Origin: Moorella glycerini
GTDB lineage: Bacteria; Bacillota; DSM-521; Neomoorellales; Neomoorellaceae
Assembly (NCBI RefSeq): GCF_009735625.1
Contig: NZ_CP046244.1
Span: 372,001 to 436,000 of the forward strand
Length of the DNA stretch: 64,000 nucleotides
Direction: 5' to 3'
Position 1 is the first letter of the stretch, and every line of letters starts with the position of its first letter. The position numbers and the translations under genes are program-made. Positions 37,523 to 60,707 of this stretch are shown piece by piece. A model generated the notes under the pieces. It was not told where the DNA came from, searched no databases, and worked only from the letters and a program-made list of their open reading frames with translations.

Positions 37523-37591
37523 AGTACTTTCCTCCAGGCTATTTCTTGTTCAATTCGAAGGTAAAGCGAACCGGTTGTATACTTCCTGCTT

Positions 37592-38767
37592 TTATTTCTG
37601 CCAGTCGCCGTTAATAACCTGTTTTTCGCCCCTGTCCTGGCGCCGTACCGCCTCCAGGCAATGGCGGAAAATACCTGCCAGGTCCTCCTGGCTGATATCG
37701 CGGCCGCCCAGGCCGCCAATAAAGCCGGCCACCTGCGGCTGGACCGGCAGGCCGGCCAGGGCCGCTTTAATTTCCGTGGCCAGCACCCCTTCATAACCAA
37801 AGGAACAATCACGATCCAGGACGGCCACCACCCTGGCCCTGGTGAGGGCCGCCCGGAGGTCTTCCACCGGGAAAGGCCGGAAACTCCTTAGACGTAAAAG
37901 GCCCACCGCTTCGCCCTGCCGGCGTAAATAGTCCACCACTTCCCGGGCCGTGCCGGCGGTGGCGCCCATGACGACCAGCACCACGGCGGCATCATGGCAA
38001 TAATAAGGGTCCACCAGGCCGCCGTAGCTGCGCTGGAAGTGGGCCTGGAACTCCCGGTCTACTTCCTTAATAACTTCTTTCGCCCGCAGCATGGCCTGCT
38101 GCTGGTAATACTTAAAGGCAGGATACAGGTCCGGCCCCGCACCGACCCCGAAGACATAGGGCCGCTGCGTATCCACGCTATACTCCGGCCGGTAGGGCGG
38201 CAGGAAGCGGTCTACGGCCTCCTGGTCCGGCACGTCCACAATTTCTTCCGTGTGGGAGAGGACATAGCCGTCCAGGCAGACCATAACCGGCGTCAGCACC
38301 TCCGGGTGGGCGGCAATTTTGTAGGCCTGCAGGCAGGTGTCCAGGGCTTCCTGGGCCGTTTCCACGTAGAGCTGGATCCAGCCCGTATCGCGGCAGGCAA
38401 TGGCGTCCTGGTGATCGGCCCAGATGGTCCAGGGAGCCGCCAGGCCGCGGTTGGCCACGGCCATAACCATGGGAACGCGGCAGCCACTGACGTAAGGGAG
38501 CATTTCAAACATGTAAGCCAGCCCCTGGGAAGAAGTGGCCGTAAAGACCCGCGTTCCCGTTACGGCTGACCCGTAGCAGGCCGCCAGGGCGGCATGCTCG
38601 GATTCCACCCGTATGTAGTCCGCCTCCATGGAACCATCAGCTATATATTCGGCTATTTTCTCCACAATGGTCGACTGGGGAGTAATGGGGTAGGCGGCCA
38701 CCACTTCCGCCCGGGCGAGCCTCACGGCTGCCGCCACCGCCTCGTTACCGTTCAAGTAGGCGCGCAT
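37592..38767 (-). CDS. porA: 2-oxoacid:ferredoxin oxidoreductase alpha subunit
   Basis: 391 residues from the ATG at 38767 (MRAYLNGNEAVAAAVRLARA), chosen because the longer frame adds a non-conserved stretch and because AAGGTAG precedes this ATG. Landmarks: VVAAYPITPQSTIVEKIAEYI, FTATSSQGLAYMFEMLPYVSG and LVVMGATAGTAREVVDYLR. DRDCSFGYEGVLATEIKAAL is near the end. It forms the substrate channel and CoA-binding parts. It overlaps porD by 23 bases and precedes porB by 69 bases. Confidence 0.91.
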   Translation of the reverse strand: MRAYLNGNEAVAAAVRLARAEVVAAYPITPQSTIVEKIAEYIADGSMEADYIRVESEHAALAACYGSAVTGTRVFTATSSQGLAYMFEMLPYVSGCRVPMVMAVANRGLAAPWTIWADHQDAIACRDTGWIQLYVETAQEALDTCLQAYKIAAHPEVLTPVMVCLDGYVLSHTEEIVDVPDQEAVDRFLPPYRPEYSVDTQRPYVFGVGAGPDLYPAFKYYQQQAMLRAKEVIKEVDREFQAHFQRSYGGLVDPYYCHDAAVVLVVMGATAGTAREVVDYLRRQGEAVGLLRLRSFRPFPVEDLRAALTRARVVAVLDRDCSFGYEGVLATEIKAALAGLPVQPQVAGFIGGLGGRDISQEDLAGIFRHCLEAVRRQDRGEKQVINGDWQK

Positions 38768-39035
38768 CGTTACTACCTTCTTCCACCAGGGCCAGGGCCT
38801 GCCGGGGACACTCCGCCACACAGATGCCGCAGCCCTTGCAAAAATCTAAATTCAGGCTAACTATCCTTTCGCCCCTGGTAAAGCAGCCTTCCGGGCAAAA
38901 GAGCCAGCAGTTCAGGCAGTTATGGCAACGTCCCGGGTCCAGGACCGGCCGTACCAGTCTCCAGGAACCGGTAGTGGTGCTCAGGCAGGGGGTCGCCAGG
39001 TTGGGGCCTTTGCGCAAATCACCTTCGGCCAGCAC
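38745..39035 (-). CDS. porD: 2-oxoacid:ferredoxin oxidoreductase delta (ferredoxin) subunit
   Basis: 96 residues from a GTG with GGGGCGG six bases upstream. Two [4Fe-4S] motifs: CHNCLNCWLFCPEG and CKGCGICVAECPRQAL. It carries electrons from the catalytic TPP to free ferredoxin. The position between gamma and alpha matches archaeal-type POR/VOR operons. Confidence 0.92.
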   Translation of the reverse strand: MLAEGDLRKGPNLATPCLSTTTGSWRLVRPVLDPGRCHNCLNCWLFCPEGCFTRGERIVSLNLDFCKGCGICVAECPRQALALVEEGSNDARLLER

Positions 39036-39085
39036 TGGCTACCGCCCCTTTCAGCCCGGCCAGCAGGTCACCTTTTACCTCTACT

Positions 39086-39661
39086 TTAACCCGCACCGGC
39101 AACAGCCTCCTTCTCAATCAAACCTTTTGCCAGGGCAAAAGCCTGCCTGGCTACGCCAATGTTTTTCGCAGCCAGCCCTTCCGGCAGGACGTCGGCAATG
39201 GCTTTTTCTACCGCCTCCAGGGAAAGGAGGCCGGTTGCCCCGGCCAGAGCCGCCACCATGGCGGTATTGACTATAGGAGCACCTAAGACCTCCCGGGCCA
39301 GGCGGGTGGCGTCGAGGTAATAGACCCGGGCTCCGGCCCGCACCTGTCCGGCCGCCATCTCCCGGCCGGCATTGATGAGGACCATCCCCCCGGCTGCCAG
39401 GCCGGCAAAAACATCGGTGCTCTCCAGCAGGGTGGCGTCCAGTACCACCACATAATCTGGGTTATAGATCTGGCTGCGGTCGCGGATGGGCCGGTTATCC
39501 AGGCGGGTAAAGGCCGTCACCGGCGCGCCCCGCCTTTCCGTGCCAAAGGAAGGAAAGGACTGGGCATAGCGGCCGCCGTAGAGGGCTGCCGCCAGGCCAA
39601 AGATGCGCGCCGCGGTAACGGCGCCCTGGCCGCCGCGACCATGCCAGCGAATCTGCAGCAT
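39086..39661 (-). CDS. porG: 2-oxoacid:ferredoxin oxidoreductase gamma subunit
   Basis: 191 residues starting MLQIRWHGRGGQGAVTAARIFG, the family's glycine-rich signature. GGRYAQSFPSFGTERRGAPVTAFTRL and GAPIVNTAMVAALAGATG follow. First gene of the operon; GGAGGTGG lies just before the ATG. It contributes the domain that binds the CoA nucleotide. Confidence 0.93.
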   Translation of the reverse strand: MLQIRWHGRGGQGAVTAARIFGLAAALYGGRYAQSFPSFGTERRGAPVTAFTRLDNRPIRDRSQIYNPDYVVVLDATLLESTDVFAGLAAGGMVLINAGREMAAGQVRAGARVYYLDATRLAREVLGAPIVNTAMVAALAGATGLLSLEAVEKAIADVLPEGLAAKNIGVARQAFALAKGLIEKEAVAGAG

Positions 39662-39761: not shown

Positions 39762-42242
39762 TTACTTCTTCCCGTTATTCCTGTCCATATTTTTACCTCC
39801 ATGAATTAATTCCCTTAAGCGCCGCTCATAAAAACTGGCCAGCTCTTCAGCCATCTCCTGGGAAAAGGCTTCGCTGTATATGCGGTAATGAGGTGTTTCC
39901 CCGTCGGGTAATACCAGGGACCAGCCATCTTGCTGGCGTATCTGGACCCCATCCAGTAGTTCCACCCCTTCGGCCGGTTCCTCGCTGATCAAAGTGCGCA
40001 TGACCCGGCCCTTGGCTTCCCAGGGACAGGGCACGGTCCGGGTGACGGTATGGACGGCCGGCAGGGCGGCCACGGCCCCGGCCAGGCTCTCGTCTCGCCG
40101 GGCCAGCCAGTCCAGGATATAGAGGAGGGCTGCCAGGGCATCCAGCTGCAGGTGCTGCTGCGCCGGGGCGGCTTCGCCATTCACCCGGGCCATGGCTTCC
40201 TGGTGGATACCGGGATGGCTTTTCACTCGCTCTACCGTTCCTCCCAGGTGCCCGGCCACCAGCTCCGCTACCCGGGATGCCGTCACCGGCAGGACCAGGC
40301 GCGCCTCCCGGTTGGCTTCCAGGTAGACCCGGGCCAGCAGGGCCTGTTGCTGGGAGGGTGTTAACCGGCGCCCCTCACCGGTAAAAAGGATTAATTCCTC
40401 GCCATTTTGATCCATGGCTGCTCCCAGGCCGGCACCGTAGCGCCCGATTTCTGCGGCGAAAAAGGGTAAATCACCCTGGATATCCCTCCAGCCCTTAGCG
40501 GGGTCAAAATCCAGCCGGACCACGTCGGCGCCGGCCCGCTGTAACACCTCAGCGGCCAGGGCGGCTATTTCTCCCTGGCACCCCAGGGCTATCCGTACCG
40601 GCCTTCTCTTTAGCCCTGCGTCCCCCAGGGTCGACAATAACCACTCGCGGTAGGTTTCCTGCAGGGCCGGGAAATAGGTAGTGGCCTGTACCTCTTTCAC
40701 CTGGCGGCCGTCTTCCCGCCAGTAGAGGTTTTCGATTTTACGCACCGCTCCAGGAGCTAAATCGTGGCCGCGCTCATTGACCAGGTGCAACCAGAGCTTA
40801 TCCCGGTTAGCAGCATCCTGTTTAATATGGCAGCCACCGGCCAGCCTTAAAGAGCGGACGGCAAAACGATGGACCGGGGTTGGTAACCGGCCCAGGTCGG
40901 CCACCTTGACCCCGGCAGCCATCAGGCCGGCGGCCATGGCCTTAAAGAGCATTTCCCCGGCCCCACCGGCAAAGGTACTCAAGCCCACCATGGTCCCTGG
41001 TGTAAAACTGGCACCATAGGCCACCCCCATGCGGGTAACCTGGAAGGGAGTTAAATCTCCCTTCAGGTAACCCGGCGCCTGGCTGCCAACAAAGAGGGGA
41101 CGAGCCGTTCCCTGGCCCCAGATGAGGCTTTCATGCACCACCGTCTCCCGGCCTAAAATTTTTTCCGGCCAGACCTTTACCTCCGGCCGCACCTCCGCCC
41201 CGATGTCTACCTGGCTGCCGTCGCCGATAACCGCGCCTTCATAAATCCGCACCTGCCGCTGCAGGCCGGCCCGGCTGCAGACCACCGCCCCCCGCAGGCT
41301 GGCTCCTTCCCCGACATATACATTATCCCAGAGGATGGACCGTTTGACGCTGGCCCCTTCTTCCAGCCGGGTGTATGGCCCCAGCACGGTAAAAGGCCCG
41401 ACCACAGCCCCCGGGCCGATACGGCAATAGCTGCCTATCAGAACCGGGCCTGTAATCCTGGCCGCAGGGTCAATCTCCACTCCTGCACCGGCCACCACGC
41501 CCTTACCCCGGTCTTCACCCACCACCCGGACTTTAACCCTGCCCTGCAAAATGTCCTCCTGGGCCTGGCGGTACTGGGCTAGATTACCAATGTCACACCA
41601 GTAACCAGATAGAGTCACCCCGTAGAGGGGACGCTTTTCCTTTAACAACCGGGGGAAGAGGTCCTTGCTGAAGTCAAAGGGCTGCCCTTCCGGCACCAGT
41701 TCCAGGACCTCGGGCTCCAGGATATAGATGCCGGTATTGACCCGGTCGCTGAAAACCTCGCCCCAGCTGGGCTTTTCCAGGAAGGAACGGATGCTGCCGT
41801 CGGGATTGGTAATCACTACCCCGTACTCCAGGGGGTTGTCGACAGTCGTTAGCACCAGGGTGGCCAGGGCGCCGCTTTCCTTGTGCCGGGCAATAGCCGG
41901 CCGCAGGTCAAAATCCGTAAGGGCGTCGCCGCTTACCACCACAAAGGTTTCATCTAAAAAGGAAGCCGCGTTTTTGACGCTGCCGGCGGTACCCAGGGGC
42001 TTATCCTCCACAAAATAATGCAGGTGCAGGCCGAAGTTTCTGCCGTCACCGAAGTATTCCTGGATCAATGCCGGTAGGTACTGCAGGGTCACCCCTACTT
42101 CTTTGATACCCAGGTCACGTAACAGGTCCAGGCAGTATTCCATTACCGGCCGGTTGGCCACCGGCACCAGGGGTTTGGGCCGCTTGCAGGTCAGGGGCCG
42201 CAAGCGCGACCCCTCCCCGCCGGCCATGATAATCGCCTTCAT
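39762..42242 (-). CDS. Mannose-1-phosphate nucleotidyltransferase fused to degenerate phosphomannomutase domain
   Basis: 826 residues from the ATG at 42242, six bases after GGAGG. Domain 1 (1-235) is a sugar nucleotidyltransferase: [33 protein letters not shown] (metal Asp) and FLEKPSW. Domain 2 (250-400) has hexapeptide repeats of the left-handed beta-helix type. Domain 3 (400-826) aligns with phosphomannomutase, but the phosphoserine loop TASHNP is replaced by [10 protein letters not shown] (471-480), the Mg loop DGDGDR by DQNGEE (611-616), and the phosphate-binding RPSGTEP by LPDGETP. So the transferase should work and the mutase should not. It probably makes GDP-mannose or a related NDP-sugar for the cell surface. 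Confidence 0.88.
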
Positions 42243-42319
42243 AGTCAACCTCCTGCCTCCGGATAACAAATTTCCAGATGCAGTATACCCCTGAAGCCGG
42301 TTCCCTACTCCCAACATTG

Positions 42320-43462
42320 TCAGCCTTTTAATACCTTCTGTAAAATCCCTTTACACGCCTCTGGAGTAACTACCCGGGGGTTAGCTTTGGCGAGAAACAT
42401 CGCGGCTGCTTCCCCTGCAAACTGAGCGATATCCTCTTCCTTTTGCAAGTAGGAAGCCAGGTTTGCCGGTAGTTCAAGATCGCTTAAAAGCTCGTGTACA
42501 GCCATTACTGCTTCCCGGGCGGCCACGTCGATACTTTCGCCAACCCCTTTACCCAGTAAGTGTGCAATAAGGGCGTACTTTTCAGGTACTGCAACCAGAT
42601 TAAAGTTCATACCCCAGGGGAGCAAGACGGCATTGGCCAGTCCATGGGGTACATCATAGTAGCTACTTAAGGGTCCTGCCAGGGCGTGGACAATACCCAA
42701 CCCTGCCTGGTCCATGGCAGCACCCGCCAGGCTACTGGCTATAGCTACCTGCTCCCTGGCTACCAGGTCATCGCCTACAGCAAAGGCTTTGCGTAGCCAT
42801 TGTCCCAGCAGTTTTATCGCCTCCGCTGCCCAAGCATCGGTAAACGGGTTGCTCTTCCTGGCCACCAGGGCTTCAATAGCGTGGGTTAAGGCATCCATAC
42901 CTGTTATTGCTGTAATAAACGGTGGTAAAGTAAGCATTAGCTCGGGGTCAATAAAGGCTGCTACCGGCAATAATTTTTCGCTGACGATGCCCTTTTTGGT
43001 GTTACGGTCCACGATAACTGCCGTCCGGGTTACTTCACTCCCGGTACCGGCTGTAGTGGGCAGGGCGTAAAGGGGTATCCCTGGTACCTGTAAGGGTTTC
43101 CCAGCCCACTGGTATTCTTCCAGCCTGCCCCCATTGGTCAGCAGGACGCTGACCATTTTGGCCACATCCAGGGGGCTACCCCCGCCCAAGGCAATGATGG
43201 CGGTCGCTCCGAAGTCCCGGGCAAACTCCAGAGCCTTTTCTACAGTAGCAGCCCGCGGGTTGGGTACAATATCGCTATAGATTTCCCGGCTGTTACCGCT
43301 TTCCTCTAATATTTCTTCTATTTTGAGTAGGGTACTGCTTTCTACTACACCCCGGTCTGTAATCACTAGAACTCTATCCTTAGCTTGTAAAAAATTAGTT
43401 AATTCTCGGCGTGCCCCGGCACCAAAGTAAAGTCTCGTAGACAAATAAAATTGATTCGGCAT
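42320..43462 (-). CDS. Iron-containing alcohol dehydrogenase
   Basis: 380 residues from the ATG at 43462 ([16 protein letters not shown]), with GGGTGGGG upstream. The NAD-binding motif is [18 protein letters not shown], and [15 protein letters not shown] is next. The metal site is complete: Asp in [11 protein letters not shown], then [16 protein letters not shown] (His) and [29 protein letters not shown] (two His). It interconverts an alcohol and an aldehyde or ketone with NAD(P). It is the last gene of the series that starts at 52424, 94 bases after the shorter Mch-like gene. In that context an aldehyde such as glycolaldehyde from a FolB-type cleavage is a possible substrate (inference). Confidence 0.92.
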
Positions 43463-43556
43463 CTTACCCCACCCTTTTACCTTGATTTTTATATTAAGCT
43501 GCACCAGAAATCCTCCAGCTCTTCCTTTTTTATATCCCACCTCGGGTTATAGAATT

Positions 43557-44336
43557 CTAGCCCTGCGAGGAAATACCCTCCAGCAGGCCGGGGATTTGCC
43601 GTCGATCTATTTTACCACTGATAAACGTGCGGCCGGAAGAAAAGTTGTGAAGCCTTATTTCACCGAAGCCGCCTAACCCTTCGGTTAGAGCAGCTAACCT
43701 TTCGTCTTCTCCCTTGAGCCAGAAACTAGTCACTGCCCCGTGACAGGCCAAATGTTTTGCCTGGTGCTTAAAAGGAGCTATGGGGCAACTACCCCAACCC
43801 CATAGAAAATCCTCCGGTGCCACTCCTTTTTGCAGCAACAGGTCAATATTGCTGGAAAGATAAAATGCCGCCTTGAAGATATTATGCACCAAGCTTCCCT
43901 GGCGGGCCACGATAATGCAGTAAAGCCTTTCCCGTTCATCCAGAATATTAAATTTAGCCCACCAGCCCTCGTCCTTGGGCAAATTAGCGGCACTTAAAAA
44001 TGCTATAGGTAACGTTATATCTACCCTCTTGCCTGTATATATTTGGGAGCCTCCCCCCAGGTATGTTTCCCGCAAGGTAGCAGGCAGGTTGTCCCAGAAT
44101 ATGTCTAGCGTTGCCAGGCGCCAGTTTTCTACCCTTAAGTCCCCGAATTCAACTACGCCCCTGCCTTCCAGGAAAAAATCCAGGGCTGCTTTAGCAGCGG
44201 CCCAGCCACCCTGGGCTTGTACACCCATATCGATGAGTAGCGGCCGTCCCGGTATCTCGATGAAGCTAATATCAAGGCTTTCCTGTCTGTCCTTTAATGC
44301 CGGCAAATTCTGCAAGCAATAGTCAACTGTTTTCAC
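43557..44336 (-). CDS. Divergent Mch-like protein, probably catalytically altered
   Basis: 259 residues, homologous along its length to the 318-residue gene just upstream: PLLIDMGVQAQGGWAAAKA matches TVIDMGINYPGSWNAARYF, and the C-terminal RTFISGKIDRRQI matches RSYATGSINNKVL. It therefore belongs to the methenyl-tetrahydromethanopterin cyclohydrolase (Mch, PF02289) superfamily but is about 60 residues shorter. The Arg and Glu taken as catalytic in the longer protein (R184, E187) align here with F158 and S161. It may be a non-catalytic partner in a mixed oligomer, or an enzyme with changed chemistry. The start has the usual spacing, 11 bases after the longer copy. Ordinary automated annotation would probably leave it hypothetical. 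Confidence 0.65.
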   Translation of the reverse strand: MKTVDYCLQNLPALKDRQESLDISFIEIPGRPLLIDMGVQAQGGWAAAKAALDFFLEGRGVVEFGDLRVENWRLATLDIFWDNLPATLRETYLGGGSQIYTGKRVDITLPIAFLSAANLPKDEGWWAKFNILDERERLYCIIVARQGSLVHNIFKAAFYLSSNIDLLLQKGVAPEDFLWGWGSCPIAPFKHQAKHLACHGAVTSFWLKGEDERLAALTEGLGGFGEIRLHNFSSGRTFISGKIDRRQIPGLLEGISSQG

Positions 44337-44347
44337 TTTTCAACTCC

Positions 44348-45304
44348 TTACCCCCAAAAATCATTTAATAAAACCTTGTTATTAATGGAACCGGTAGCAT
44401 AACTGCGCCCGCTCCGGACGTTAAAAAAGGTTACTTTAGCAGGAGCATCCCAGTCCCGGGGTACCTTGGCCCACGAACCACCGCACCTGGCAAAAAGTTC
44501 TTTGAATGGGACCCCGTAAACGTCGCTATTTTTATTGAAAGGCAGGTCAGCCAGGACCTTTTCTATTTCCCCATCTTCACAATCCACCCATAGGATTGTT
44601 TCTTGGCCGTAGATCAGGCAGTCATTTACGCGGCCATAAGCCTCCATCTCATCCGACACTATAGCCACAACTGGAGCAATACCGAACGCCTGGATTATGT
44701 TATTCATTTTAAACCCGCGGTCATAAAGGGAAGGTAAAGTCTGCTCTACATTGCGAGCTGCCACCTGAACGGCTCCTACTATGGTTCCAGTGCCAGCTGC
44801 TAATATATAAAGTTTTGCTGCCGGTACTCCTGCTTCACGAGCAATCAGGTCGGCAAGGTCGGGACCAGGTAATTCCGTCGTCTGGATCATGGCTACCCCG
44901 TATTCGCCATGGGGTTCCCGGTAAGATACCGCCTGGGCAAATACATCCGGAGCCTTGATGGCCCGGATAGGACCGGAAATGACAATACTCTGATCTTTAT
45001 ATTTCAACTTCCAGTAGGCTACATGGGAGCTCATCTCAGTTATCACCGGCCTGGTCACATAAACGCCAATGGTCGGCACCAGGTAACCTGCTATTTCCAT
45101 TTTACCGTACTTGACTTCCCCCCGGCCGCCCAGGCCGATCTGGACGAAATAACGGGCTGCATTCCAACTACCGGGATAATTAATCCCCATATCGATTACG
45201 GTGGCACCATTGTCCAAAACCTGCACGCCAATACGTAGTTCTTCCGACCGTGGTAATACATTTTCCTTTATAATTCTGACTGCTTCCTGGTTATAGCTAA
45301 ACAC
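44348..45304 (-). CDS. Methenyl-tetrahydromethanopterin cyclohydrolase (Mch) homologue
   Basis: 318 residues from a GTG preceded by GGAGGGG. It matches the archaeal/methylotroph Mch pattern in order: LDNGATVIDMGINYPGSWNAA (28-50), ISGPIRAIKAPDVFAQ, LYILAAGTGTIVGAVQVAARNVEQ (166-188), AFGIAPVVAIVSD, NDCLIYGQETILWVD and the C-terminal APAKVTFFNVRSGRSYATGSIN. The length equals Mch (about 316). R184 and E187 sit where I recall the catalytic Arg183/Glu186 of the Archaeoglobus enzyme. Mch hydrolyses the C1 methenyl bridge of a methanopterin C1 carrier; acetogens use folate, so this role is unexpected. It is flanked by a divergent Mch copy and a deaminase gene. True substrate unknown. Confidence 0.78.
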   Translation of the reverse strand: MFSYNQEAVRIIKENVLPRSEELRIGVQVLDNGATVIDMGINYPGSWNAARYFVQIGLGGRGEVKYGKMEIAGYLVPTIGVYVTRPVITEMSSHVAYWKLKYKDQSIVISGPIRAIKAPDVFAQAVSYREPHGEYGVAMIQTTELPGPDLADLIAREAGVPAAKLYILAAGTGTIVGAVQVAARNVEQTLPSLYDRGFKMNNIIQAFGIAPVVAIVSDEMEAYGRVNDCLIYGQETILWVDCEDGEIEKVLADLPFNKNSDVYGVPFKELFARCGGSWAKVPRDWDAPAKVTFFNVRSGRSYATGSINNKVLLNDFWG

Positions 45305-45375: not shown

Positions 45376-46737
45376 CTATATATTTAATTTATCCCTGAGG
45401 CGGCGGGCAATATCTTGGACTTTATTGACTACTTCTTCTTCATTGATAGTAAGCAGGTGGCGGCAATGCATCACAATCTTCCCGTTAATTATTACCGTCT
45501 CGATATTTTCCTGATCGCAAGAGTAGACCAGAGTCGCCAGGGGATCGTGGACCGGAGTAGTTGTTGGTAACCCTGGGTTAACTATAAATAAATCAGCCCG
45601 GTAACCAGGTGCCAGGGTGCCAATTTGTTTCTCCATTCCAACCGCCCGGGCACCTTCACAGGTGGCCATAGCAATAATGCGGGAGGCATTAATAATACCT
45701 GGATTGCGGTAGACACCTTTATGCACCAAAGCCGTGAGCTTTAATAATTCAATCATATTCTGGCTGTTATTACTGGCAGCGCCGTCAGTAGCCAAAGAGA
45801 CAGCGGTCGCCGGGGAGGCCCGGGTTATGGGGGCAACACCTGACCCTAGATAGAGATTAGCCGCCATACAATGGGACCAAGATACCCGGTATGCATCCAT
45901 TAATTGTAAATCACTCTCTTCAGCTTGAACCCCATGCACTAAAAGAAAATGGTTAGCCAGCATACCCATCTCGGCCAGGATTTCCAGAGGCCGTTTCCCG
46001 TAATCAGCCTGGCAAAGATCAATGTCATAATCTGTTTCCATTAAGTGCATGGTAATGGGAACCTTGTTTTCCGTGGCATAAGCTGCAAGGGAACGTAGAC
46101 CGCTATAACTCATCCCCCACATCACTGAAGGCGCCAGCCAAATATGAATCATTCCATCGCTTTTTAATTCATACTGCCGGCGTAGATAGTCCACTTCCGT
46201 CAGAACGGTATCCACATCTTCAATCAGTTGGGGCGGGACACCCCGGTTAACACCGGTATCATGCACGCCCCGACCAAAGAGCAGGCGGATGCCGGTCGTT
46301 TGGGCGGCCGTAATAACTGCTTCCGAAAATTCCGGGTGGCAGGTCAGATACATAAAATCCAGCAAGGTCGTCGTACCGCTGCGGATGGCTTCCAATATAC
46401 CCAGTTGGGCGGCATAATAGCAATCTTCCTCACTAAGCAAAGGTACAACAGGGGTTATCAGGCGGGCAATCCAGGTTTGTAAAGGGGTATCGGCGGCCAG
46501 ACCCTTGAGTAAGGTTTGAAATAGATGGGTATGGCTATTAATCAAACCAGGAAAAATATAATGACCCTTGGCATTAATTAGCTTTCTCCCCTTATAGGCA
46601 GCTGTTATTTCAGCCGAGGTTCCCATAGCCACAATCTTACTGCCCTCAATAGCCAGGGCACCATTAAAAATTATAGTCCGGGCGGCATCCATAGTTACTA
46701 TGGTGCCACCAACAACAATAAGGTCTACTTCTTTCAA
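45376..46737 (-). CDS. Amidohydrolase-family deaminase (Atz/Trz; purine/pterin deaminase-like)
   Basis: 453 residues from a TTG directly after the ATPase stop, with GGAGG eight bases upstream. A mononuclear-metal amidohydrolase with H69-T-H71 in INSHTHLFQ, H231 and E234 in MHLMETDYD, H268 in LLVHGVQ and D318 in LATDGAASNNSQNM. This set is shared by enzymes that deaminate guanine, 8-oxoguanine, S-adenosylhomocysteine, triazines, pterin and isoxanthopterin. Next to a nucleoside-type importer and pterin-type proteins, a purine or pterin aminoheterocycle is the likely substrate; sequence alone does not choose. Confidence 0.87.
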   Translation of the reverse strand: MKEVDLIVVGGTIVTMDAARTIIFNGALAIEGSKIVAMGTSAEITAAYKGRKLINAKGHYIFPGLINSHTHLFQTLLKGLAADTPLQTWIARLITPVVPLLSEEDCYYAAQLGILEAIRSGTTTLLDFMYLTCHPEFSEAVITAAQTTGIRLLFGRGVHDTGVNRGVPPQLIEDVDTVLTEVDYLRRQYELKSDGMIHIWLAPSVMWGMSYSGLRSLAAYATENKVPITMHLMETDYDIDLCQADYGKRPLEILAEMGMLANHFLLVHGVQAEESDLQLMDAYRVSWSHCMAANLYLGSGVAPITRASPATAVSLATDGAASNNSQNMIELLKLTALVHKGVYRNPGIINASRIIAMATCEGARAVGMEKQIGTLAPGYRADLFIVNPGLPTTTPVHDPLATLVYSCDQENIETVIINGKIVMHCRHLLTINEEEVVNKVQDIARRLRDKLNI

Positions 46738-48258
46738 TTAAACTGCCTCCTCGGCTTTTTGCTTTCTGCCCGCCATCAATAGGCCAATGTTGGTGATATC
46801 AGCATTAGTGGTATCAACAATGTCCATTAATACTCCCTCATAAATAATCCCGATACGGTCGCTTAGATTTAATATCTCATCAAGTTCAGTAGAAACCAAT
46901 AACACCGCACAACCCTTGTCTCTTTCTGCAATGAGGTTGCGATGAATATACTCCGTTGCCCCAACATCCAATCCCCGTGTGGGATGAACGGCAATCAGGA
47001 GTTTAGGCTGGCGGTAAAGTACCCGCGCCAGGATTACCTTTTGTTGATTGCCGCCAGAAAGGTTAACAGCCGGCACCTCGCTATTAGGGGTCCGGATATC
47101 ATAAGCCTTGATTAATCTGTTTGCCAGTTCCTGCATTGGTTTGGCTTGTAAAAAATGATGCCGAGTAAAAGGTGGCTGGTAAAAATATTCGAGAATTAGG
47201 TTTTCTTTAAGGTTCATATCCAGCACTAAACCTTGTCGCTGGCGATCTTCAGGTATATGGGCCAGGCCCAGGTCGAGAAGTTTTCGCGGCGGCAGGTTTG
47301 TTGCTTCCTGGCCGCAAACCTTAATTCGACCCTTGCTAACGGGGAGCAAGCCTGTAATAGCTTTGATTAATTCGGACTGACCATTGCCGTCGACACCGGC
47401 CAAACCGAAAATTTCACCGGCACGTACTGTAAAAGATATCCCCCGCACAGCCGGTAAATTTTGTTCCTTTTGCACATGCAAATCTTCTACTTCTAACACT
47501 GGCATACCGGGGCGAGAGGATTGTTTATCTAAATGAAGATTTACTTCCCGCCCAACCATCAGGCGAGCCAGTTCTTCAGGAGAGGTAACCTCAGTAAAAA
47601 CCGTCTTAACAAGACGACCCCGGCGCAATACGGAAACCCTGCGGCTAATAGCCATTACTTCATTCAGCTTGTGGCTAATAAAAATGACGGTAACGCCTTC
47701 AGCAGTAAGCCGTTTTAAGATTATAAACAGCTCTTGAGTTTCCTGAGGAGTAAGGACAGCCGTCGGTTCATCGAGAATTAAAATCCTGGCACCCCGGTAT
47801 AGGGCTTTCAGAATTTCTACCCGTTGCTGTTGGCCGACAGATAATGTGGCTACTCGAGCCTCAGGATTAACCTTTAAGCCATATTGATCACCCGCAACCC
47901 TGATTTTTCGGGCAGCTTCTCTCAGGTTGAGATGGATACCACCGGCCATGCCCAGAATGATATTTTCAGCAACTGTTAGAGCCGGAATGAGCATAAAGTG
48001 CTGGTGCACCATGCCAATACCCAGTCTGATGGCTTGCCGGGGGGAATCAATTATAACTTCCCGGCCCTCTAAAAAAATATGGCCGGCATCGGCGCCATAG
48101 AGGCCATAAAGAATATTCATTAAGGTACTTTTACCGGCGCCGTTTTCTCCCAATAAAGCATGAACTTCTCCCGGATAAACATCCAGGTCAATATGGTCAT
48201 TAGCCAGGACTCCCGGGAACTCCTTAACTATGCCGCGCAGGCTTAGAATAGGTTTCAT
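46738..48258 (-). CDS. ABC transporter, double ATP-binding protein (nucleoside/simple sugar type)
   Basis: 506 residues with two ATPase domains. The first has Walker A GENGAGKSTLMN, LSVGQQQRVEILKAL and ILILDEPTAVLTP. The second has GVDGNGQSELIKAI (non-canonical Walker A, usual in RbsA/NupO/MglA), NLSGGNQQKVILARVL and LLIAVHPTRGLDVGATEYI. It matches NupO/YufO-type ATPases that work with BMP-family binding proteins. It overlaps the upstream permease gene by four bases. Confidence 0.93.
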   Translation of the reverse strand: MKPILSLRGIVKEFPGVLANDHIDLDVYPGEVHALLGENGAGKSTLMNILYGLYGADAGHIFLEGREVIIDSPRQAIRLGIGMVHQHFMLIPALTVAENIILGMAGGIHLNLREAARKIRVAGDQYGLKVNPEARVATLSVGQQQRVEILKALYRGARILILDEPTAVLTPQETQELFIILKRLTAEGVTVIFISHKLNEVMAISRRVSVLRRGRLVKTVFTEVTSPEELARLMVGREVNLHLDKQSSRPGMPVLEVEDLHVQKEQNLPAVRGISFTVRAGEIFGLAGVDGNGQSELIKAITGLLPVSKGRIKVCGQEATNLPPRKLLDLGLAHIPEDRQRQGLVLDMNLKENLILEYFYQPPFTRHHFLQAKPMQELANRLIKAYDIRTPNSEVPAVNLSGGNQQKVILARVLYRQPKLLIAVHPTRGLDVGATEYIHRNLIAERDKGCAVLLVSTELDEILNLSDRIGIIYEGVLMDIVDTTNADITNIGLLMAGRKQKAEEAV

Positions 48259-49244
48259 AAATTCGCCCCCGATTGCTTTACCTTTACTGTCCGGCGATGA
48301 TGGCCGCGGGCTTTATCCTTGATATAAGGAAGACCGCTGGCGGCCGGACCTTTAGCAGGCCCCATGAAGAATATAAGGACTATCAAAGTAAGGGCATAAG
48401 GTAACATCAAAAAGAATTGATAGGGCAGTTGGAAATTAAAGGCCTGTAAGCGTAATTGCAACGCTTCACCTGCCCCAAATAAGAGGGTTGCCATAGCGGT
48501 GCCAGCGGCTGTCCATTTACCGAACACTATAGCGGCAAAGGCGATAAAACCACGCCCAGCAGTAATATTATCGTAAAAGGTGTTAATGCCGCTCAAGGTA
48601 ATGGCTGCTCCTCCCAGGCCGGACAAGAAGCCGCTGAGGACGACTGCCAGGTAACGTACTTTGACCACATCAATGCCAGCTACATCCAGGGCCTTGGGAT
48701 GTTCACCGGCAGCCCGGATAGACAGGCCCCAGGAAGTATGATAAAGGATATAGTTAACCAAAAGTACCAGGACAACGGCCAGATAAACCAGGGGTACCTG
48801 TTCAAAAAATATATGGCCAATAAAAGGGATTTTACTTAAAGCACCAAAATTTACGGGTACCATCCCCGGGCTTTCCAGTTGTTTGAGGTCCATACCAAAA
48901 ATCAGGCGAAAAAAGGTGCTAGTTATTCCCAGGGCAAGCATATTAAGGCCAACTGCCGTCACAATCTGGTCTACCTTGACGGTAATACTCAAATAAGCAT
49001 GCAACAGGGCCAGTAGCCCACCACATAGAGCTGCGACCACGAGGCCGATAAGGACACTATGGGAATAAAAGGCACCAAGGTAGCCAAAAAAAGCGCCCAT
49101 GAGCATCATACCTTCTAATCCCAGGTTTAAAACTCCGGCCCGTTCGCTAAAAAGCCCGCCCATAGCTGCCAGCAAGAGGGGGGTGGTTAACCGGATGGCA
49201 GCATTGTAGAAGTCTGCATCGGTAAATATATCAAGTAAAACCAT
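48255..49244 (-). CDS. ABC transporter permease 2 (NupQ/YufQ type)
   Basis: 329 residues, eight to ten hydrophobic segments. It has RLTTPLLLAAMGGLFSERAGVLNLGLEGMMLMGAF near the N-terminus, the standard signature of this permease type, and the ATPase-contact loop SWGLSIRAAGEHPKALDVAGIDV. The ATG overlaps the stop of permease 1 (TAATG). It forms the channel with permease 1. Confidence 0.92.
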   Translation of the reverse strand: MVLLDIFTDADFYNAAIRLTTPLLLAAMGGLFSERAGVLNLGLEGMMLMGAFFGYLGAFYSHSVLIGLVVAALCGGLLALLHAYLSITVKVDQIVTAVGLNMLALGITSTFFRLIFGMDLKQLESPGMVPVNFGALSKIPFIGHIFFEQVPLVYLAVVLVLLVNYILYHTSWGLSIRAAGEHPKALDVAGIDVVKVRYLAVVLSGFLSGLGGAAITLSGINTFYDNITAGRGFIAFAAIVFGKWTAAGTAMATLLFGAGEALQLRLQAFNFQLPYQFFLMLPYALTLIVLIFFMGPAKGPAASGLPYIKDKARGHHRRTVKVKQSGANL

Positions 49245-50314
49245 TAAAAGTCCACCTCACGCGGCTGACTGAACCTGATGAAATTAAGCTTTAGTCTAGT
49301 AAAACCCAGGACACAGAGGATAATAATGGCCTGGATAACATAGACGATGGTAACCGGAATACCCGTGAGAATCTGCATAGTATTAGCGCCATTCCGTAAA
49401 GCACCGAAAAAAATGGCTGCCATTACTGTACCTAGAGGATTAAGTTTACCAAGAAGCGCTACAGCGATGGCATCATAGCCGGTATTGGGTGAAAAGTCTT
49501 GCAGTAAAATATACTGGTAGCCCAGAATTTGGACTGCCCCGGCTAAACCGGCCAGGGAGCCGCTGACTATCATAGCGCCAATTAAAGTGCGGTCGGCGTT
49601 CATGCCGGCCGTCCGTGCGGCTTCAGGATTAGAGCCCACCGCCCGTAACTGGTAACCCCAATCAGTTTTGTAGATTATAACAAATAGTATCCCTGCCGCT
49701 AGTAAGCCCAGGAAAAGCCCTGCATTAAGTTCGGTTCCCGGCAAAAGTTTGGGCAACCGGGCAGTAGCAGCTACCGGCGGTGATTGGGGGGCATAGGTAG
49801 CCGGGTCTTTTAAAAAGCTGTTAACGGCATAATTAACAAAGTGGACACCAATGTAGTTTAAAAGGATTGTGGTAATAACTTCATTGAACCCCCGGCGCAC
49901 TTTTAAATATCCCGGGATTAAAGCCCACAGGGCGCCGGCGGCACAACTTGCCGCCAGCGCCAGGGGGAGGTGAATAATGAATGGTAAATCATGGTAACGG
50001 GCACCAAAATAAGTTGCAGCCATAGCTCCAAGATAAAGTTGTCCTTCAGCACCAATGTTGAAGATCCCGGAGCGAAAAGCCAGGGCAATGCCCAGACCAG
50101 CCAGCATTAAAGGTATGGCCAGGACCAAACTGGCCCCGAAGTTACCCAGGCCACTAAAAGCGCCTTCAAACATGGCTGCATATGCTTGTAAAGGGTTACT
50201 TCCCTGCCAGAACAAAATAAAGGAACTTATAAACAGAGCCACGGTTATGGCTAGCAGGGCTATGAAAAGGTAATTGAGGGTATCCAGGATTTTAACCCCA
50301 AAACGGCTACCCGT
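49244..50314 (-). CDS. ABC transporter permease 1 (NupP/YufP type), probable ACG start
   Basis: The ATPase-contact loop DWGYQLRAVGSNPEAARTAGMN and FRSGIFNIGAEGQLYLGAMAA identify the family. The first standard start codon in frame is GTG at 50242, but that cuts the first membrane helix in half and has no ribosome site. Upstream the frame continues through NYLFIALLAITVALFIS to a TGA just before CTT-ACC-ACG; no ATG, GTG or TTG occurs in frame. The ACG at 50314 lies nine bases after AAGGAG and gives MGSRFGVKILDTLNYLF as N-terminus, about 356 residues. So either an ACG start is used or an ATG was mutated. An N-terminally short form from 50242 is the alternative. Confidence 0.75.
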   Translation of the reverse strand, partial: TGSRFGVKILDTLNYLFIALLAITVALFISSFILFWQGSNPLQAYAAMFEGAFSGLGNFGASLVLAIPLMLAGLGIALAFRSGIFNIGAEGQLYLGAMAATYFGARYHDLPFIIHLPLALAASCAAGALWALIPGYLKVRRGFNEVITTILLNYIGVHFVNYAVNSFLKDPATYAPQSPPVAATARLPKLLPGTELNAGLFLGLLAAGILFVIIYKTDWGYQLRAVGSNPEAARTAGMNADRTLIGAMIVSGSLAGLAGAVQILGYQYILLQDFSPNTGYDAIAVALLGKLNPLGTVMAAIFFGALRNGANTMQILTGIPVTIVYVIQAIIILCVLGFTRLKLNFIRFSQPREVDF

Positions 50315-50327
50315 GGTAAGTCACTCC

Positions 50328-51368
50328 TTAATACAAGGTTTTAATGGAAAATTTGCCATCCAGATAATCTTTAACAGCACTTTGAACTTTATCAACTACA
50401 TCTTGCGGTACGTTTTTAAAGGGTGCCAGTGACTGGGCGCCATCCTTCATTCCATAAACATAATGCTGTGGTTCCAGTTTTCCCTTTTTAGCCGTTTCAG
50501 CTATTTTGAGATAAAGGGCCTCCACCGACTGCAGTCCGCTGGTAACGATTGTATCCGGCGCCATGAAATTCTGATCCGTCACCCAGCCAATAGCCTTGGC
50601 ATTAGCATCCTTACAGGCCTGGAAAACACCAATACTAAAGGAATTACCCATAACCAGCAAAACATCATTACCCTGGGATAGTAAGGCCTTGGCTGCTTCC
50701 TTGGCTTTCGGGATATCTTCCCAGCTGCCAACATAGGATACCGCTACACTAGCTTTGGGGTTTACCTTGGCAACACCTTCTTTAAAGGTATCAATATCAG
50801 CGGTAACAGTTGGAGCGGCCATAGGAGCAACGACGCCAACTTTGTTGCTCTTGGTGATTAAACCTGCTGTCATGCCTGTGAAGTAACCTAGTTCGCCAAA
50901 TTTAAAACTGGTTGAAGCTAAATTGGGACCGGTAACGCTGCCATTGATCACCACGAACTGGGTATTAGGGAATTCTGGCGCCACCGATTTCATGGCTTCA
51001 TCAAAATCAAAGCTGTGTCCAAAAATAAGGTTATAACCCTGGCGGGCGTAAGTACGGATTACTTGGGTATAATTGGCTGGAGCGACTTTTTCTGTATAGG
51101 CAATTTTAGCCCCCAGCTTGGCCTGAATCTCATTTAAACCCTGTAAAGCTGAAGCATTCCACCCGCCATCATTAACCGCCCCGGGAGCAATCAGGGCCAC
51201 CTTAAATTCACCTTTAGTGTCACTATTAGTGTTACTGTTGCTGGTTGTAGACGTATTGCCTTGTTTACCAGTTTCATTAGCTGGCTTACTACCACACCCG
51301 GCTACCAGGGCCAGCACCAGCAAAGCGATGACTACAAACACCAAACATTTCCGCAAGCCTTTACTCAT
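50328..51368 (-). CDS. BMP-family substrate-binding lipoprotein (nucleoside/purine-like ligand)
   Basis: 346 residues from the ATG at 51368, placed by GGAGGAAG. The lipoprotein signal is KCLVFVVIALLVLALVAGC; a Ser/Thr/Asn-rich linker follows (residues about 30-50). The BMP/PnrA pattern is clear: VALIAPGAVNDGGWNASALQGL, YNLIFGHSFDFDEAM, NTQFVVINGSVTGPN, ELGYFTGMTAGLITKSNKVGVV and AIGWVTDQNFMAPDTIVTS. Members bind purine nucleosides; related ones bind other heterocycles. It is encoded between folB-like and permease genes. Confidence 0.92.
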   Translation of the reverse strand: MSKGLRKCLVFVVIALLVLALVAGCGSKPANETGKQGNTSTTSNSNTNSDTKGEFKVALIAPGAVNDGGWNASALQGLNEIQAKLGAKIAYTEKVAPANYTQVIRTYARQGYNLIFGHSFDFDEAMKSVAPEFPNTQFVVINGSVTGPNLASTSFKFGELGYFTGMTAGLITKSNKVGVVAPMAAPTVTADIDTFKEGVAKVNPKASVAVSYVGSWEDIPKAKEAAKALLSQGNDVLLVMGNSFSIGVFQACKDANAKAIGWVTDQNFMAPDTIVTSGLQSVEALYLKIAETAKKGKLEPQHYVYGMKDGAQSLAPFKNVPQDVVDKVQSAVKDYLDGKFSIKTLY

Positions 51369-51388
51369 TTTGTCTTCCTCCTTAACAA

Positions 51389-51763
51389 TTAATTTTTTTG
51401 CGGCTCCCGGACTATGGAGCAACCGCTATATTCCACAATACCGCCGATGGCCACAGAGGGTTTTTTTACTGTCACCCGGACTTGCTTTATAGGGTAGGCA
51501 GCTATTATTTCATCGGCGATACGCTGGGCAATCCTTTGCACTGTCCTATATTGTTCTTTAGTTGCCACCCGCTCAGCAATGGCGTAAACATCCATATAGC
51601 TTAAAGAGCCCGTCAGGTCGTCGGTAGTACAGGTATGGCTCATATCAATAGAAACTTCAACATCGACAACAAAACGCTGGCCTAACGTGTTTTCCTCAGG
51701 AAAATAACCGTGTTTGGCCCAAAACTGCATCCCTTTAACCAATAATAGATCTTCCTTTTCCAA
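51389..51763 (-). CDS. FolB-like T-fold aldolase with altered pterin anchor
   Basis: 124 residues from a TTG nine bases after GGGAGG; an ATG farther upstream would overlap the previous gene. It follows dihydroneopterin aldolase (FolB) closely: LLLVKGMQFWAKHGYFPEEN, DVEVSIDMSHTC, SLSYMDVYAIAERV and the VRVTVKKPSVAIGG segment with the KP lysine. The position of the pterin-anchoring Glu (E in VERVAEEVA of E. coli FolB) is Gln76 here (VQRIAQRIA). In the T-fold superfamily Glu binds 2-amino pterins or purines, and Gln binds 2-oxo rings, as in urate oxidase. So it may act on a deaminated pterin or related ring. It lies in an operon with a deaminase and a nucleoside-type importer. Confidence 0.82.
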   Translation of the reverse strand: MEKEDLLLVKGMQFWAKHGYFPEENTLGQRFVVDVEVSIDMSHTCTTDDLTGSLSYMDVYAIAERVATKEQYRTVQRIAQRIADEIIAAYPIKQVRVTVKKPSVAIGGIVEYSGCSIVREPQKN

Positions 51764-51770
51764 AGCAACT

Positions 51771-52424
51771 TTACCTCCCGGTAACATTCGGCGCAAGGGT
51801 TGGCGGCTCTAATCCTTGCTTAATCATCAGCGCGGCTTCAGCTACCCGACGGGCGATAGTTTGGGCATTGGTAAGCCCAAGCAAGTCTTCCTGGGCCCCT
51901 TCTGCCCTCCGGTCCTGACTCCAGATGGCAGCACCATGGTAAATACCGAGGCCACCGCTGGCTACCAGGATGCCGTGGGTATAATAAAAGCCCAGTAAAA
52001 CATTCAAGGTCGTTTCCTGACCGCCGTTACGGGTACCGCCGACGGTAATGGCCCCACCTACCTTTCGGGAAAAATAGAAAGGATCTTTTTTTAACAGGGT
52101 ATAAGTTGGGCGAAAACGGTTTAAGAAAGTAACCATTTGACCGGTCGCCCCCATGTTGTAAACCGGTGAAGCCAGGAGATAGGCGTCAGCATCATAAAAT
52201 ACCTGGTAAAGAGGACGCATATCGTCATTATGTGCGGGACAGTAATTCAAGCCGTTTTTTACACAGCGATCGCAATGCAAACAAAAATTTATTTTTTTGT
52301 TGCGTAAAGTAATGAGTTCGGTAGTAACTCCTTCAATTGAGGCGGCAGCCTTTAAAGCTTCTGTAAGCACATACTCGGTGGCCGCTTTACGCGGACTGCC
52401 GCAAATACCTAAAAGTTTAATCAA
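51771..52424 (-). CDS. Iron-sulfur flavoprotein / NADPH-dependent FMN reductase family
   Basis: 217 residues, flavodoxin-like fold with FMN loop ICGSPRKAATEYVLTEAL and the ISF-type cluster motif CLHCDRCVKNGLNYC (Cys48-x2-x2-Cys type). SPVYNMGATGQMVTFLNR lies over the flavin, and GGTRNGGQETTLNVLLGFYYTHG is conserved in these proteins. It is the first gene of the ten-gene series, so it may supply electrons to it. The paralogue at 60708 closes the sugar-alcohol region. Confidence 0.88.
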   Translation of the reverse strand: MIKLLGICGSPRKAATEYVLTEALKAAASIEGVTTELITLRNKKINFCLHCDRCVKNGLNYCPAHNDDMRPLYQVFYDADAYLLASPVYNMGATGQMVTFLNRFRPTYTLLKKDPFYFSRKVGGAITVGGTRNGGQETTLNVLLGFYYTHGILVASGGLGIYHGAAIWSQDRRAEGAQEDLLGLTNAQTIARRVAEAALMIKQGLEPPTLAPNVTGR

Positions 52425-52624: not shown

Positions 52625-52642
52625 AATGTAAACCTTTACATT
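52625..52642. promoter_or_regulatory. LacI-type operator 1 (intergenic region 52425-52799)
   Basis: AATGTAAACCTTTACATT, 7-bp perfect arms (AATGTAA/TTTACATT with an extra pair). It lies between the divergent iron-sulfur flavoprotein series and lacI. The rest of this 375-bp gap has short tandem repeats (ACTAAGTCC twice near 52535; CCAACAG twice near 52555) and no gene. Confidence 0.8.
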
Positions 52643-52749: not shown

Positions 52750-52799
52750 AGAATGAAGGTTAAATGAAATTGATATACAGGCAAAGGAATGACCCTTGG

Positions 52800-53810
52800 A
52801 TGGATATAAAAACTATCGCAGCCAAGGCCGGGGTTTCTATAGCTACAGTTTCACGGGCTTTAAATAAGCCCGAAATGGTGCGGCCGCAAACCCGGGCCCG
52901 GATTATGCAAATTGTCGACGAAATGCAATATAGCCCTAACCCTCTAGCCAAAAGCCTTTTAACAGGTCGTACCTATACTGTAGCCCTTGTGTTTCCCACC
53001 TTACGCAATCCCTATTTTAGCCAATTGGCCGAAGGATGTGAGGCAGAATTATCGAATGCCGGTTATACTACCAGTATCTTTTCCTTTGAGGAAGAAATCT
53101 CTAAGCAACGAACAATATTTAATAATATCATCCGGCGTCACGTAGATGGCATTATCTTAGCCGGTTCCGGTTCCCTGCAAGCAGGATACCAGCAGATTTT
53201 GGAGGGTTTAAATATCCCCATTGTTGTCGTCGAAGATATGCCTGACCTGGATACCATTCCTGTCCGGGCGGGTATTAGTTGCATCAACATAGATGACCGT
53301 CAGGGAACCCAGATGGCCATAAAATATTTCCTGCAAAAAGGCCACCGGGAAATAGGTATTATTGCCGGCGAAGGGCAAATGCTTTTAACAAGGCGGCGCT
53401 TAGAGGCAGCCCGATCAGTTTTAAAAGAAGCCGGGTTAACGTTAAACCATATTGTCAATGGCAGTTATATATCGGTAGAAAGTGGCTACCGGGGAATGCT
53501 TCGCTTACTGGATAGCGATGCCCGGATGACAGCTGTTTTTGCTTTTAATGACCTGCTGGCTATTGGAGCGCTTAATGCCGTCCTTGATAGGGGTTTGCAG
53601 GTTCCCGGAGATGTAGCTATTATCGGCTTTGACGATATCCCCCTGGCAGCTTACACGCGCCCACGTTTAAGTACCGTTCACTCTCCCAGCAATGAGATTG
53701 GTGCCTATGCAGCCAGAATGCTCCTGGAACATATCGCCGAAGAAAAAGCAGCTAGTACCAGGCGGCGGGTATTTATACCAGCCAAGCTGGTTATCCGGGA
53801 GACTTGCTAG
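52800..53810 (+). CDS. LacI family transcriptional regulator (paralogue 1)
   Basis: 336 residues from the ATG at 52800 (MDIKTIAAKAGVSIATVSRALNKPEMV), the standard LacI N-terminus; an ATG 12 codons earlier is less likely. Helix-turn-helix and hinge occupy residues 1-60 (AKSLLTGRTYTVALVFP), then a periplasmic-binding-like ligand domain with SYISVESGYRGMLRLLD, FAFNDLLAIGALNAV and IIGFDDIPLAAYTRPRLSTVHSP. It is about as similar to the regulator at 56235 as close paralogues are. Likely binds the AATGTAAA..TTTACATT sites. Ligand probably a sugar or sugar alcohol. Confidence 0.92.
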   Translation: MDIKTIAAKAGVSIATVSRALNKPEMVRPQTRARIMQIVDEMQYSPNPLAKSLLTGRTYTVALVFPTLRNPYFSQLAEGCEAELSNAGYTTSIFSFEEEISKQRTIFNNIIRRHVDGIILAGSGSLQAGYQQILEGLNIPIVVVEDMPDLDTIPVRAGISCINIDDRQGTQMAIKYFLQKGHREIGIIAGEGQMLLTRRRLEAARSVLKEAGLTLNHIVNGSYISVESGYRGMLRLLDSDARMTAVFAFNDLLAIGALNAVLDRGLQVPGDVAIIGFDDIPLAAYTRPRLSTVHSPSNEIGAYAARMLLEHIAEEKAASTRRRVFIPAKLVIRETC

Positions 53811-56031: not shown

Positions 56032-56071
56032 TAATGAATCACCTGCCCTTCGTAATAAAAGAGCGACTCGA

Positions 56072-56089
56072 AATGTAAAGGGTTACATT
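56072..56089. promoter_or_regulatory. LacI-type operator 2
   Basis: AATGTAAAGGGTTACATT, same arms as operator 1, 41 bases upstream of the dehydrogenase start on the minus strand. Confidence 0.8.
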
Positions 56090-56156
56090 CTTTATTTGGT
56101 TATTCGCTATTTTTATTAAATATCCTCCTGGACTCGAAAAAATTTTTAAAGGAAAC

Positions 56157-56186
56157 TTGCTAGTATAACTCCATATAGATTATGAT
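56157..56186 (+). promoter_or_regulatory. Promoter of second lacI-type gene
   Basis: TTGCTA (56157-56162), 18 bases, TATGAT (56181-56186). Confidence 0.6.
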
Positions 56187-56199
56187 ATATGAGAGAATA

Positions 56200-56217
56200 A
56201 ATGCAAGCGTTTGTATT
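56200..56217. promoter_or_regulatory. LacI-type operator 3 (variant) or cre site
   Basis: AATGCAAGCGTTTGTATT: same length and arms as operators 1, 2 and 4 with changes, and a central CG. It overlaps the +1 region of the second lacI gene, so autoregulation is likely; it also resembles a catabolite-response element. Confidence 0.65.
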
Positions 56218-56234
56218 ATACCGGGGTGAAGAGC

Positions 56235-57236: not shown

Positions 57237-57313
57237 TGTTCCTTCACTAGAACCCATATACGATATTTATAATATCCACCGGCAGGATTTCATCCAGTTG
57301 CGTAGAAATATAT

Positions 57314-57331
57314 AATGTAAACGCTTACATT
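57314..57331. promoter_or_regulatory. LacI-type operator 4, overlapping aldolase promoter
   Basis: AATGTAAACGCTTACATT; its first bases overlap the TATAAT at 57311-57316, so bound repressor would block transcription of the aldolase unit. The -35 is weak. Confidence 0.85.
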
Positions 57332-57350
57332 ATTTTTAGGGGGTTGGATT

Positions 57351-58133: not shown

Positions 58134-58160
58134 TCTAACTCCCGGGAGGAAAGTATTAGC

Positions 58161-59204: not shown

Positions 59205-59218
59205 GGAGGTATGTACCC

Positions 59219-60691: not shown

Positions 60692-60707
60692 ACACGGGGG
60701 AATCAAA

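Follow-up and report, generated by a model that had tools for sequence, protein, structure and literature searches.

A conserved pair of Mch homologues, with and without the catalytic residues, in a predicted pteridine catabolic operon of Moorella glycerini

Introduction

Members of the Mch family (Pfam PF02289) are automatically annotated as methenyl-H4MPT cyclohydrolase, and their presence is taken as a sign of methanopterin-linked C1 metabolism. In Mch from A. fulgidus, Arg183 and Glu186 are presumably the catalytic residues. H4MPT and methanofuran genes in Firmicutes have already been listed by Chistoserdova 2016 (PMC5020050), and two genomes from the genus of M. glycerini (G004 and G009) contain a canonical Mch. 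In G004, it is found in a cluster (L067, G004:C22) with genes for FhcA, FhcB, FhcC and Ftr and with MptN-like, MfnB-like and MfnD-like genes. This cluster and its counterpart in G009 (L062, G009:C1) have RFAP synthase nearby and a folate-type FTHFS alongside; their distribution is patchy within the genus. An earlier note on the DNA described here, made from the letters alone, had called Mch unexpected in an acetogen-like genome, which is too strong in view of these genomes and of the genes listed for Firmicutes.

A second enzyme relevant here is dihydroneopterin aldolase (DHNA, FolB). In DHNA from S. aureus, as in the other DHNAs of known structure, a glutamate anchors the pterin (Glu74 in S. 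aureus). A glutamine takes the equivalent place in urate oxidase, an enzyme that binds a 2-oxo purine. FolB and urate oxidase both belong to the T-fold superfamily (PMC2229834), and pterin and lumazine differ in having a 2-amino or a 2-hydroxy (oxo) group, respectively (PMC11121863).

Here, we describe two adjacent Mch homologues of M. glycerini, MchL and MchS. They represent a form of the Mch family that is new, in which a catalytic and a non-catalytic-looking copy are constantly paired in a predicted pteridine catabolic operon. This context points to a bacterial use of the Mch family not described before; a search of the open-licence literature for the pair, for an operon-linked Mch and for bacterial lumazine catabolism with FolB gave no description, which is weak evidence.

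Results

MchL and MchS are homologues of Mch

The window, that is the whole stretch of 64,000 nucleotides analysed, contains the genes for MchL (318 aa; 44348..45304) and MchS (259 aa; 43557..44336) on the minus strand, separated by 11 bp. Both proteins reach the gathering cut-off of the Pfam model MCH (PF02289; cut-off 25), MchL with 263 bits and MchS with 30.6 bits. With the NCBIfam model TIGR03120 (cut-off 228.8), MchL is just above (232.2 bits) and MchS below the cut-off (14.9 bits). Since operon-type MCHs from two other loci (L064 and L068) exceed it as well, this cut-off cannot separate canonical from operon-type MCH. MchL matches the structure 1qlm in sequence over residues 1-316 (E 3.5e-51), and its structure model has a pLDDT of 94. 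The AlphaFold2 model of the short homologue MchS (pLDDT 88.9) matched 1qlm with a Z score of 24.5 over 251 aligned residues, whereas the best unrelated fold reached a Z score of only 5.7. In addition, a profile built from five MchS proteins matched all solved Mch structures with E values from 1e-28 to 1e-14, among them 1qlm at 9.8e-29. Taken together, the Pfam and NCBIfam scores, the profile and fold matches of MchS and the model of MchL establish that both proteins are Mch homologues, and the family assignment made in the earlier note was correct.

The same holds for what it said about the active site. Arg183 and Glu186 of the A. fulgidus enzyme align with Arg184 and Glu187 in MchL, but with Phe158 and Ser161 in MchS. 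None of the eight MchS proteins aligned has a glutamate at position 186, and Arg183 is kept in two or three of them. The C-terminal segment around A. fulgidus residues 258-282 is deleted in MchS, and motifs of its own are conserved, for example W-G/A-W near residue 180. Compared to the A. fulgidus enzyme, MchL has two changes: Gln93 in the catalytic segment is replaced by His, which is the case in nearly all MchL, and Glu140 is replaced by Gln.

The two genes occur together

MchL loci were found with the MchL alignment as profile, whereas a contig scan with a single protein gave no match. In profile searches over the fetched loci, MchS was encoded directly downstream and on the same strand at 12 of 12 distinct MchL loci (L087, which is on the same contig as L064, was counted once). 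These loci are from M. glycerini itself, from G009, G130, G095 and G067, from Marasmitruncus massiliensis and Pseudoflavonifractor and from other Bacillota records. Pairing of an active-looking with a degenerate copy, as seen before by the earlier reader in this genome, is thus a constant feature. Because of this constant pairing and the conserved motifs of its own, MchS is to be regarded as a maintained, non-catalytic-looking paralogue and not as a decaying gene. Since different Bacillota lineages have kept this pairing, the idea that the tandem reflects neofunctionalisation or a predicted MchL-MchS heteromer is a fair one.

The pair is present in 5 of 398 genomes of the sampled phylum, and class-level sampling around G130 and G150 (3 and 10 genomes, respectively) revealed no extra pairs. 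A Chloroflexota MCH from an Anaerolineales MAG (L095) has Gln140 and groups with MchL; the operon-type MCH branch is, therefore, not confined to Bacillota. One related cluster (L085, G079:C1:1192001-1212000) consists of many short, broken open reading frames (MCH, amidohydrolase, BMP, SDR) and is apparently decaying.

The operon around the pair

Upstream of the operon and divergent from it is a gene for a LacI-family regulator (52764..53810, plus strand; PF00356/PF13377), and a LacI-type operator palindrome, AATGTAAACCTTTACATT (52625..52642), lies between the two. This motif recurs with one mismatch at 56073 and 57315 beside a second LacI gene and is, therefore, not specific for the operon. 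Starting from LacI, the minus strand encodes a flavoprotein of the NADPH-dependent FMN reductase family (51771..52424; PF03358, 88.6 bits), a FolB (51389..51796; TIGR00525, 98.8 bits, above the cut-off of 72.15), a BMP/PnrA-type substrate-binding lipoprotein (50328..51422; PF02608, 205 bits), two ABC permeases (49244..50242 and 48255..49244; both PF02653), the ABC transporter ATPase (46738..48258; PF00005) and an amidohydrolase (45376..46737; PF01979, 217 bits), followed by MchL, MchS and an iron-containing alcohol dehydrogenase (42320..43540; PF00465). The latter is closest to lactaldehyde reductase, but with 308.7 bits it is below the cut-off of TIGR02638 (523).

The amidohydrolase is of the s-triazine / 8-oxoguanine / isoxanthopterin deaminase class and matches the structures 4v1x (219 bits), 7ww2 (176.6 bits) and 3hpa (171 bits), which makes it a candidate pterin deaminase. 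It reached no cut-off among the NCBIfam equivalog models, and no curated model there names it a pterin deaminase.

Genes further downstream were considered as members of the system and rejected: neither the 2-oxoacid:ferredoxin oxidoreductase genes (36707-39661) nor the nucleotidyltransferase/phosphomannomutase-like fusion (39762-42317) have a counterpart beside other pairs. On the other side, a second LacI-regulated set (53948-61310) with alcohol dehydrogenases, a DeoC-type aldolase, an FGGY kinase and an FMN reductase is adjacent. Homologues of its genes adjoin pathway clusters at four other loci (L149, L150, L151 and L153), so that this set and the operon are possibly parts of one larger pathway.

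Related clusters in other genomes

Most genes of the operon, in varying order, also surround the pair in G009 (L061), G130 (L063), G067 (L065) and Marasmitruncus (L088), and FolB and the FMN reductase recur in all four. A divergent LacI gene and similar operator sites are found upstream of the clusters at L061, L063 and L065, and the iron-containing alcohol dehydrogenase adjoins the pair at L065 and L088, too. An aldehyde:ferredoxin oxidoreductase (AFOR) is added at L065, and UbiD, Mo-hydroxylases and, as judged from its sequence, an aldehyde dehydrogenase at L088. In G095, the pair has a second pair of MCH genes as its neighbour, and these flank genes for an acetoin-dehydrogenase-type E1/E2 and for a BudC-like SDR; FolB, FMN reductase, BMP, AFOR and LacI are encoded together on a separate contig (L149).

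At five loci (L064, L066, L071, L074 and L086), there are two additional MCH copies linked to an operon. Each has the Arg and Glu intact, and the two flank genes for an acetoin-dehydrogenase-type E1/E2 and a butanediol-dehydrogenase-like SDR. A biopterin-like diol side chain would suit this set. The operon-linked MCH at L070 is accompanied by an ECF transporter with a riboflavin-type S component, a pterin-binding methyltransferase, a DAO-type oxidase and amidohydrolases. FolB relatives are found next to a Mo-hydroxylase, a RibD_C reductase and an amidohydrolase (L146) or, as Gln-type, beside a formamidase (L147 and L148). These companion genes point to pteridines, and the operon context as a whole, which the earlier note had not seen, to their catabolism.

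In G067, G095 and G150, three genomes without RFAP synthase, paralogues of Ftr are encoded within clusters that hold importers and amidohydrolases. The loci are L150 (G067), L151 (G150) and L152, L153 and L154 (G095), with amidohydrolases and ECF or BMP importers as neighbours. Identity to canonical Ftr is 62-67% for the paralogues at L152 and L154, and at L152 there are FhcA/FhcB-like genes as well.

Glu-to-Gln changes in FolB and MchL

The FolB of the operon is an extra copy, since a second FolB with the usual Glu at the anchor position is encoded elsewhere in the genome. All operon-linked FolBs have a glutamine instead (Gln87 in the operon FolB, which kept the catalytic Glu and Lys of the aldolase). 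Glu was found in the DHNAs of the PDB, in the folate-type FolBs of the pathway genomes and in every single-domain FolB checked outside the extra copies of these genomes. Among the genomes examined, Gln-type FolB was present in 10 of 11 with an operon-type MCH and in none of 8 without (exact p ~1e-4, ignoring relatedness), as determined with a search model that was seeded partly with operon members and with double-domain FolBs scored by their first domain; in G034, the Gln is present only in such a first domain. The exception is G016, where an operon-type MCH is accompanied by no other FolB than one of the Glu type. G386, with a match to the FolB model but no MCH detected, was considered as another exception and rejected, as its anchor is the usual Glu. 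The double-domain FolBs (L118, L119, L120 and L121, from G150, G034 and G095) have about 240-260 aa; the first domain carries Gln at the anchor and the second has diverged there.

A similar exchange is seen in the Mch family. Position 140 (A. fulgidus numbering) is Glu in 18 of 18 canonical Mch, a set of archaeal, haloarchaeal, proteobacterial and Bacillota proteins, and Gln in 26 of 26 operon-type MCHs. It is the sole alignment column that differs with more than 80% conservation on both sides. If Glu140 contacts the pterin, both enzymes would have come to recognise a 2-oxo in place of a 2-amino group, which is what one expects downstream of a deaminase. A comparable switch was sought in the Ftr paralogues, but none was seen in the three divergent sequences aligned.

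Relation to the H4MPT pathway

RFAP synthase (TIGR00144) and Ftr (PF01913) are both absent from the genome of M. glycerini, which is 99.97% complete; the same searches found both in the two genomes of the genus with canonical Mch and in methanogens used as controls. The outcome for RFAP synthase is in line with the check that the earlier note had proposed for methanopterin biosynthesis. FTHFS was found and, thus, the folate route is present. A maximum-likelihood tree of 46 sequences, in which the long-branched MchS rows are uncertain in position, unites H4MPT-linked Bacillota Mch and archaeal Mch in one clade (100/99); MchL (100/100) and MchS fall outside of it, as do three more groups that are operon-linked. 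The tree does not support the earlier description of the pair as archaeal-type. G009 serves as an internal control: the canonical Mch of its H4MPT cluster is at 2.04 Mb, and the pair of MchL and MchS is encoded at another locus, at 1.44 Mb. MchL and MchS do not look like part of H4MPT C1 metabolism.

Discussion

That the system serves catabolism or salvage of pteridines and not C1 metabolism is, in our view, probable. With somewhat less confidence, but still on the favourable side, we assign MchL and MchS to a LacI-type operon by which pterin-like compounds would be taken up and broken down, distinct from methanopterin-linked C1 metabolism. From homology, fold, gene order, conservation, residue states and the missing RFAP synthase and Ftr we infer a substrate, an order of steps, a reaction for MchL and a heteromer as follows. 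A pteridine would be taken up by the BMP-type ABC importer, and the amidohydrolase would replace the 2-amino group by oxygen, converting the pterin to a lumazine. The FMN-reductase flavoprotein may adjust the redox state, and the FolB with its Gln anchor would then act on the 2-oxo compound by cutting off its polyol side chain, with release of a short aldehyde, which the iron-containing alcohol dehydrogenase (AFOR or aldehyde dehydrogenase in the relatives) could remove. In the least certain step, MchL with its water-activating Glu/Arg pair might hydrolyse the 2-oxo pteridine in a cyclohydrolase-type reaction. MchS, having lost the pair, would be the non-catalytic partner subunit. UbiD, Mo-hydroxylase and formamidase in the relatives would fit oxidation and opening of the ring, with the position of the bond left unfixed. 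A specific role of MchL as a lumazine hydrolase is only a tentative proposal. Still more speculative is the complete picture: an anaerobic pathway for lumazines, the 2-oxo pteridines, that has so far gone undescribed and might have recruited archaeal-style Mch and, in sister clusters, Ftr, with Mch adapted by the Glu-to-Gln exchange at a presumed pteridine-recognition residue, matched by that in FolB, and with MchL and MchS forming a two-subunit ring-opening hydrolase. A bolder form of the idea would be a lumazine-type C1 carrier.

The strongest rival is a C1-loaded reduced pterin as substrate. Exogenous folates, or methanopterins from methanogens, would be salvaged or degraded, MchL would open the methenyl form, the formyl form would be handled by the Ftr paralogues and the methyl form by the pterin-binding methyltransferases of the sister clusters, and the remaining enzymes would degrade the pterin. 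MchL indeed kept the catalytic pair of Mch, and a C1-bearing substrate retains some probability because Ftr paralogues beside importers and amidohydrolases, in genomes without RFAP synthase, and a pterin-binding methyltransferase of the methyl-H4F:corrinoid type are found in some related clusters. However, the operon in the window has neither Ftr nor such a methyltransferase, the genome lacks Ftr altogether, and MchL deviates at Gln93 and Glu140. Moreover, FolB cleaves polyol side chains, and folate and methanopterin carry none directly at C6. We consider a C1-loaded substrate rather unlikely.

Less probable again is a purine-type substrate such as xanthine or a guanine nucleoside. The deaminase would yield a 2-oxo purine, and MchL would open its imidazole ring, which is formally analogous to the ring that contains N5=CH-N10 in methenyl-H4MPT. 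BMP/PnrA importers and this class of amidohydrolases also serve purines, and the Gln of urate oxidase, a T-fold relative of FolB, anchors just such a 2-oxo purine. But FolB kept the Glu and Lys of the aldolase, which have no evident role on purines, and the riboflavin-type ECF S component, RibD_C and the pterin-binding proteins of the sister clusters indicate pteridines; the retained aldolase residues in particular make a purine doubtful.

A standard role in H4MPT-linked C1 metabolism, for which the cofactor would be imported, could be argued from the TIGR03120 score of MchL and from its intact Arg/Glu pair, but the canonical function is largely excluded since the pathway genes are missing; the separate clade, the replaced diagnostic Glu140 and the two distinct loci in G009 also make it very improbable. 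That MchS is a decaying pseudogene or an inert duplicate, as its lost catalytic residues, its C-terminal deletion and its very long branches in the tree might suggest, is hardly credible for an open reading frame kept right after MchL at every locus and in several genera, with conserved motifs and a confident Mch fold.

If breakdown of pteridines is the true function, anaerobic Bacillota, including gut species, would take up and degrade pterins by a route absent from the literature searched. With the two Glu-to-Gln exchanges, the predicted substrate is open to a direct test on pterins and lumazines. Annotation of operon-type PF02289 members as methenyl-H4MPT cyclohydrolase is misleading, since this branch passes the curated cut-off in genomes without genes for H4MPT biosynthesis.

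The nearest described relatives of the single components help to define what is different here. With known Mch (PF02289/TIGR03120; PDB 1qlm, 4gvq and 4fio), the pair shares the fold and homology over the whole length, and MchL also the Arg/Glu pair, but the operon-type members form a separate clade, all with Glu140 exchanged for Gln, and MchL and MchS differ from known Mch in the constant second, non-catalytic copy, in the catabolic operon context and in a genome without H4MPT genes. The canonical H4MPT/methanofuran clusters of Bacillota (L067 and L062) likewise hold an Mch homologue, and in the same genus, but together with FhcA, FhcB, FhcC, Ftr and MptN-like and MfnB-like genes and without importer, deaminase and second Mch. 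The operon FolB is above the cut-off for dihydroneopterin aldolase (TIGR00525; PDB 1dhn and 5f3m) and kept the catalytic Glu, Tyr and Lys positions, but differs from the standard enzyme in the Glu-to-Gln exchange at the anchor and in its place in a transporter/deaminase operon. The amidohydrolase, finally, matches the isoxanthopterin, 8-oxoguanine and s-triazine deaminases (3hpa, 7ww2 and 4v1x) with about 170-220 bits over nearly the full length, a similarity at the level of the class only.
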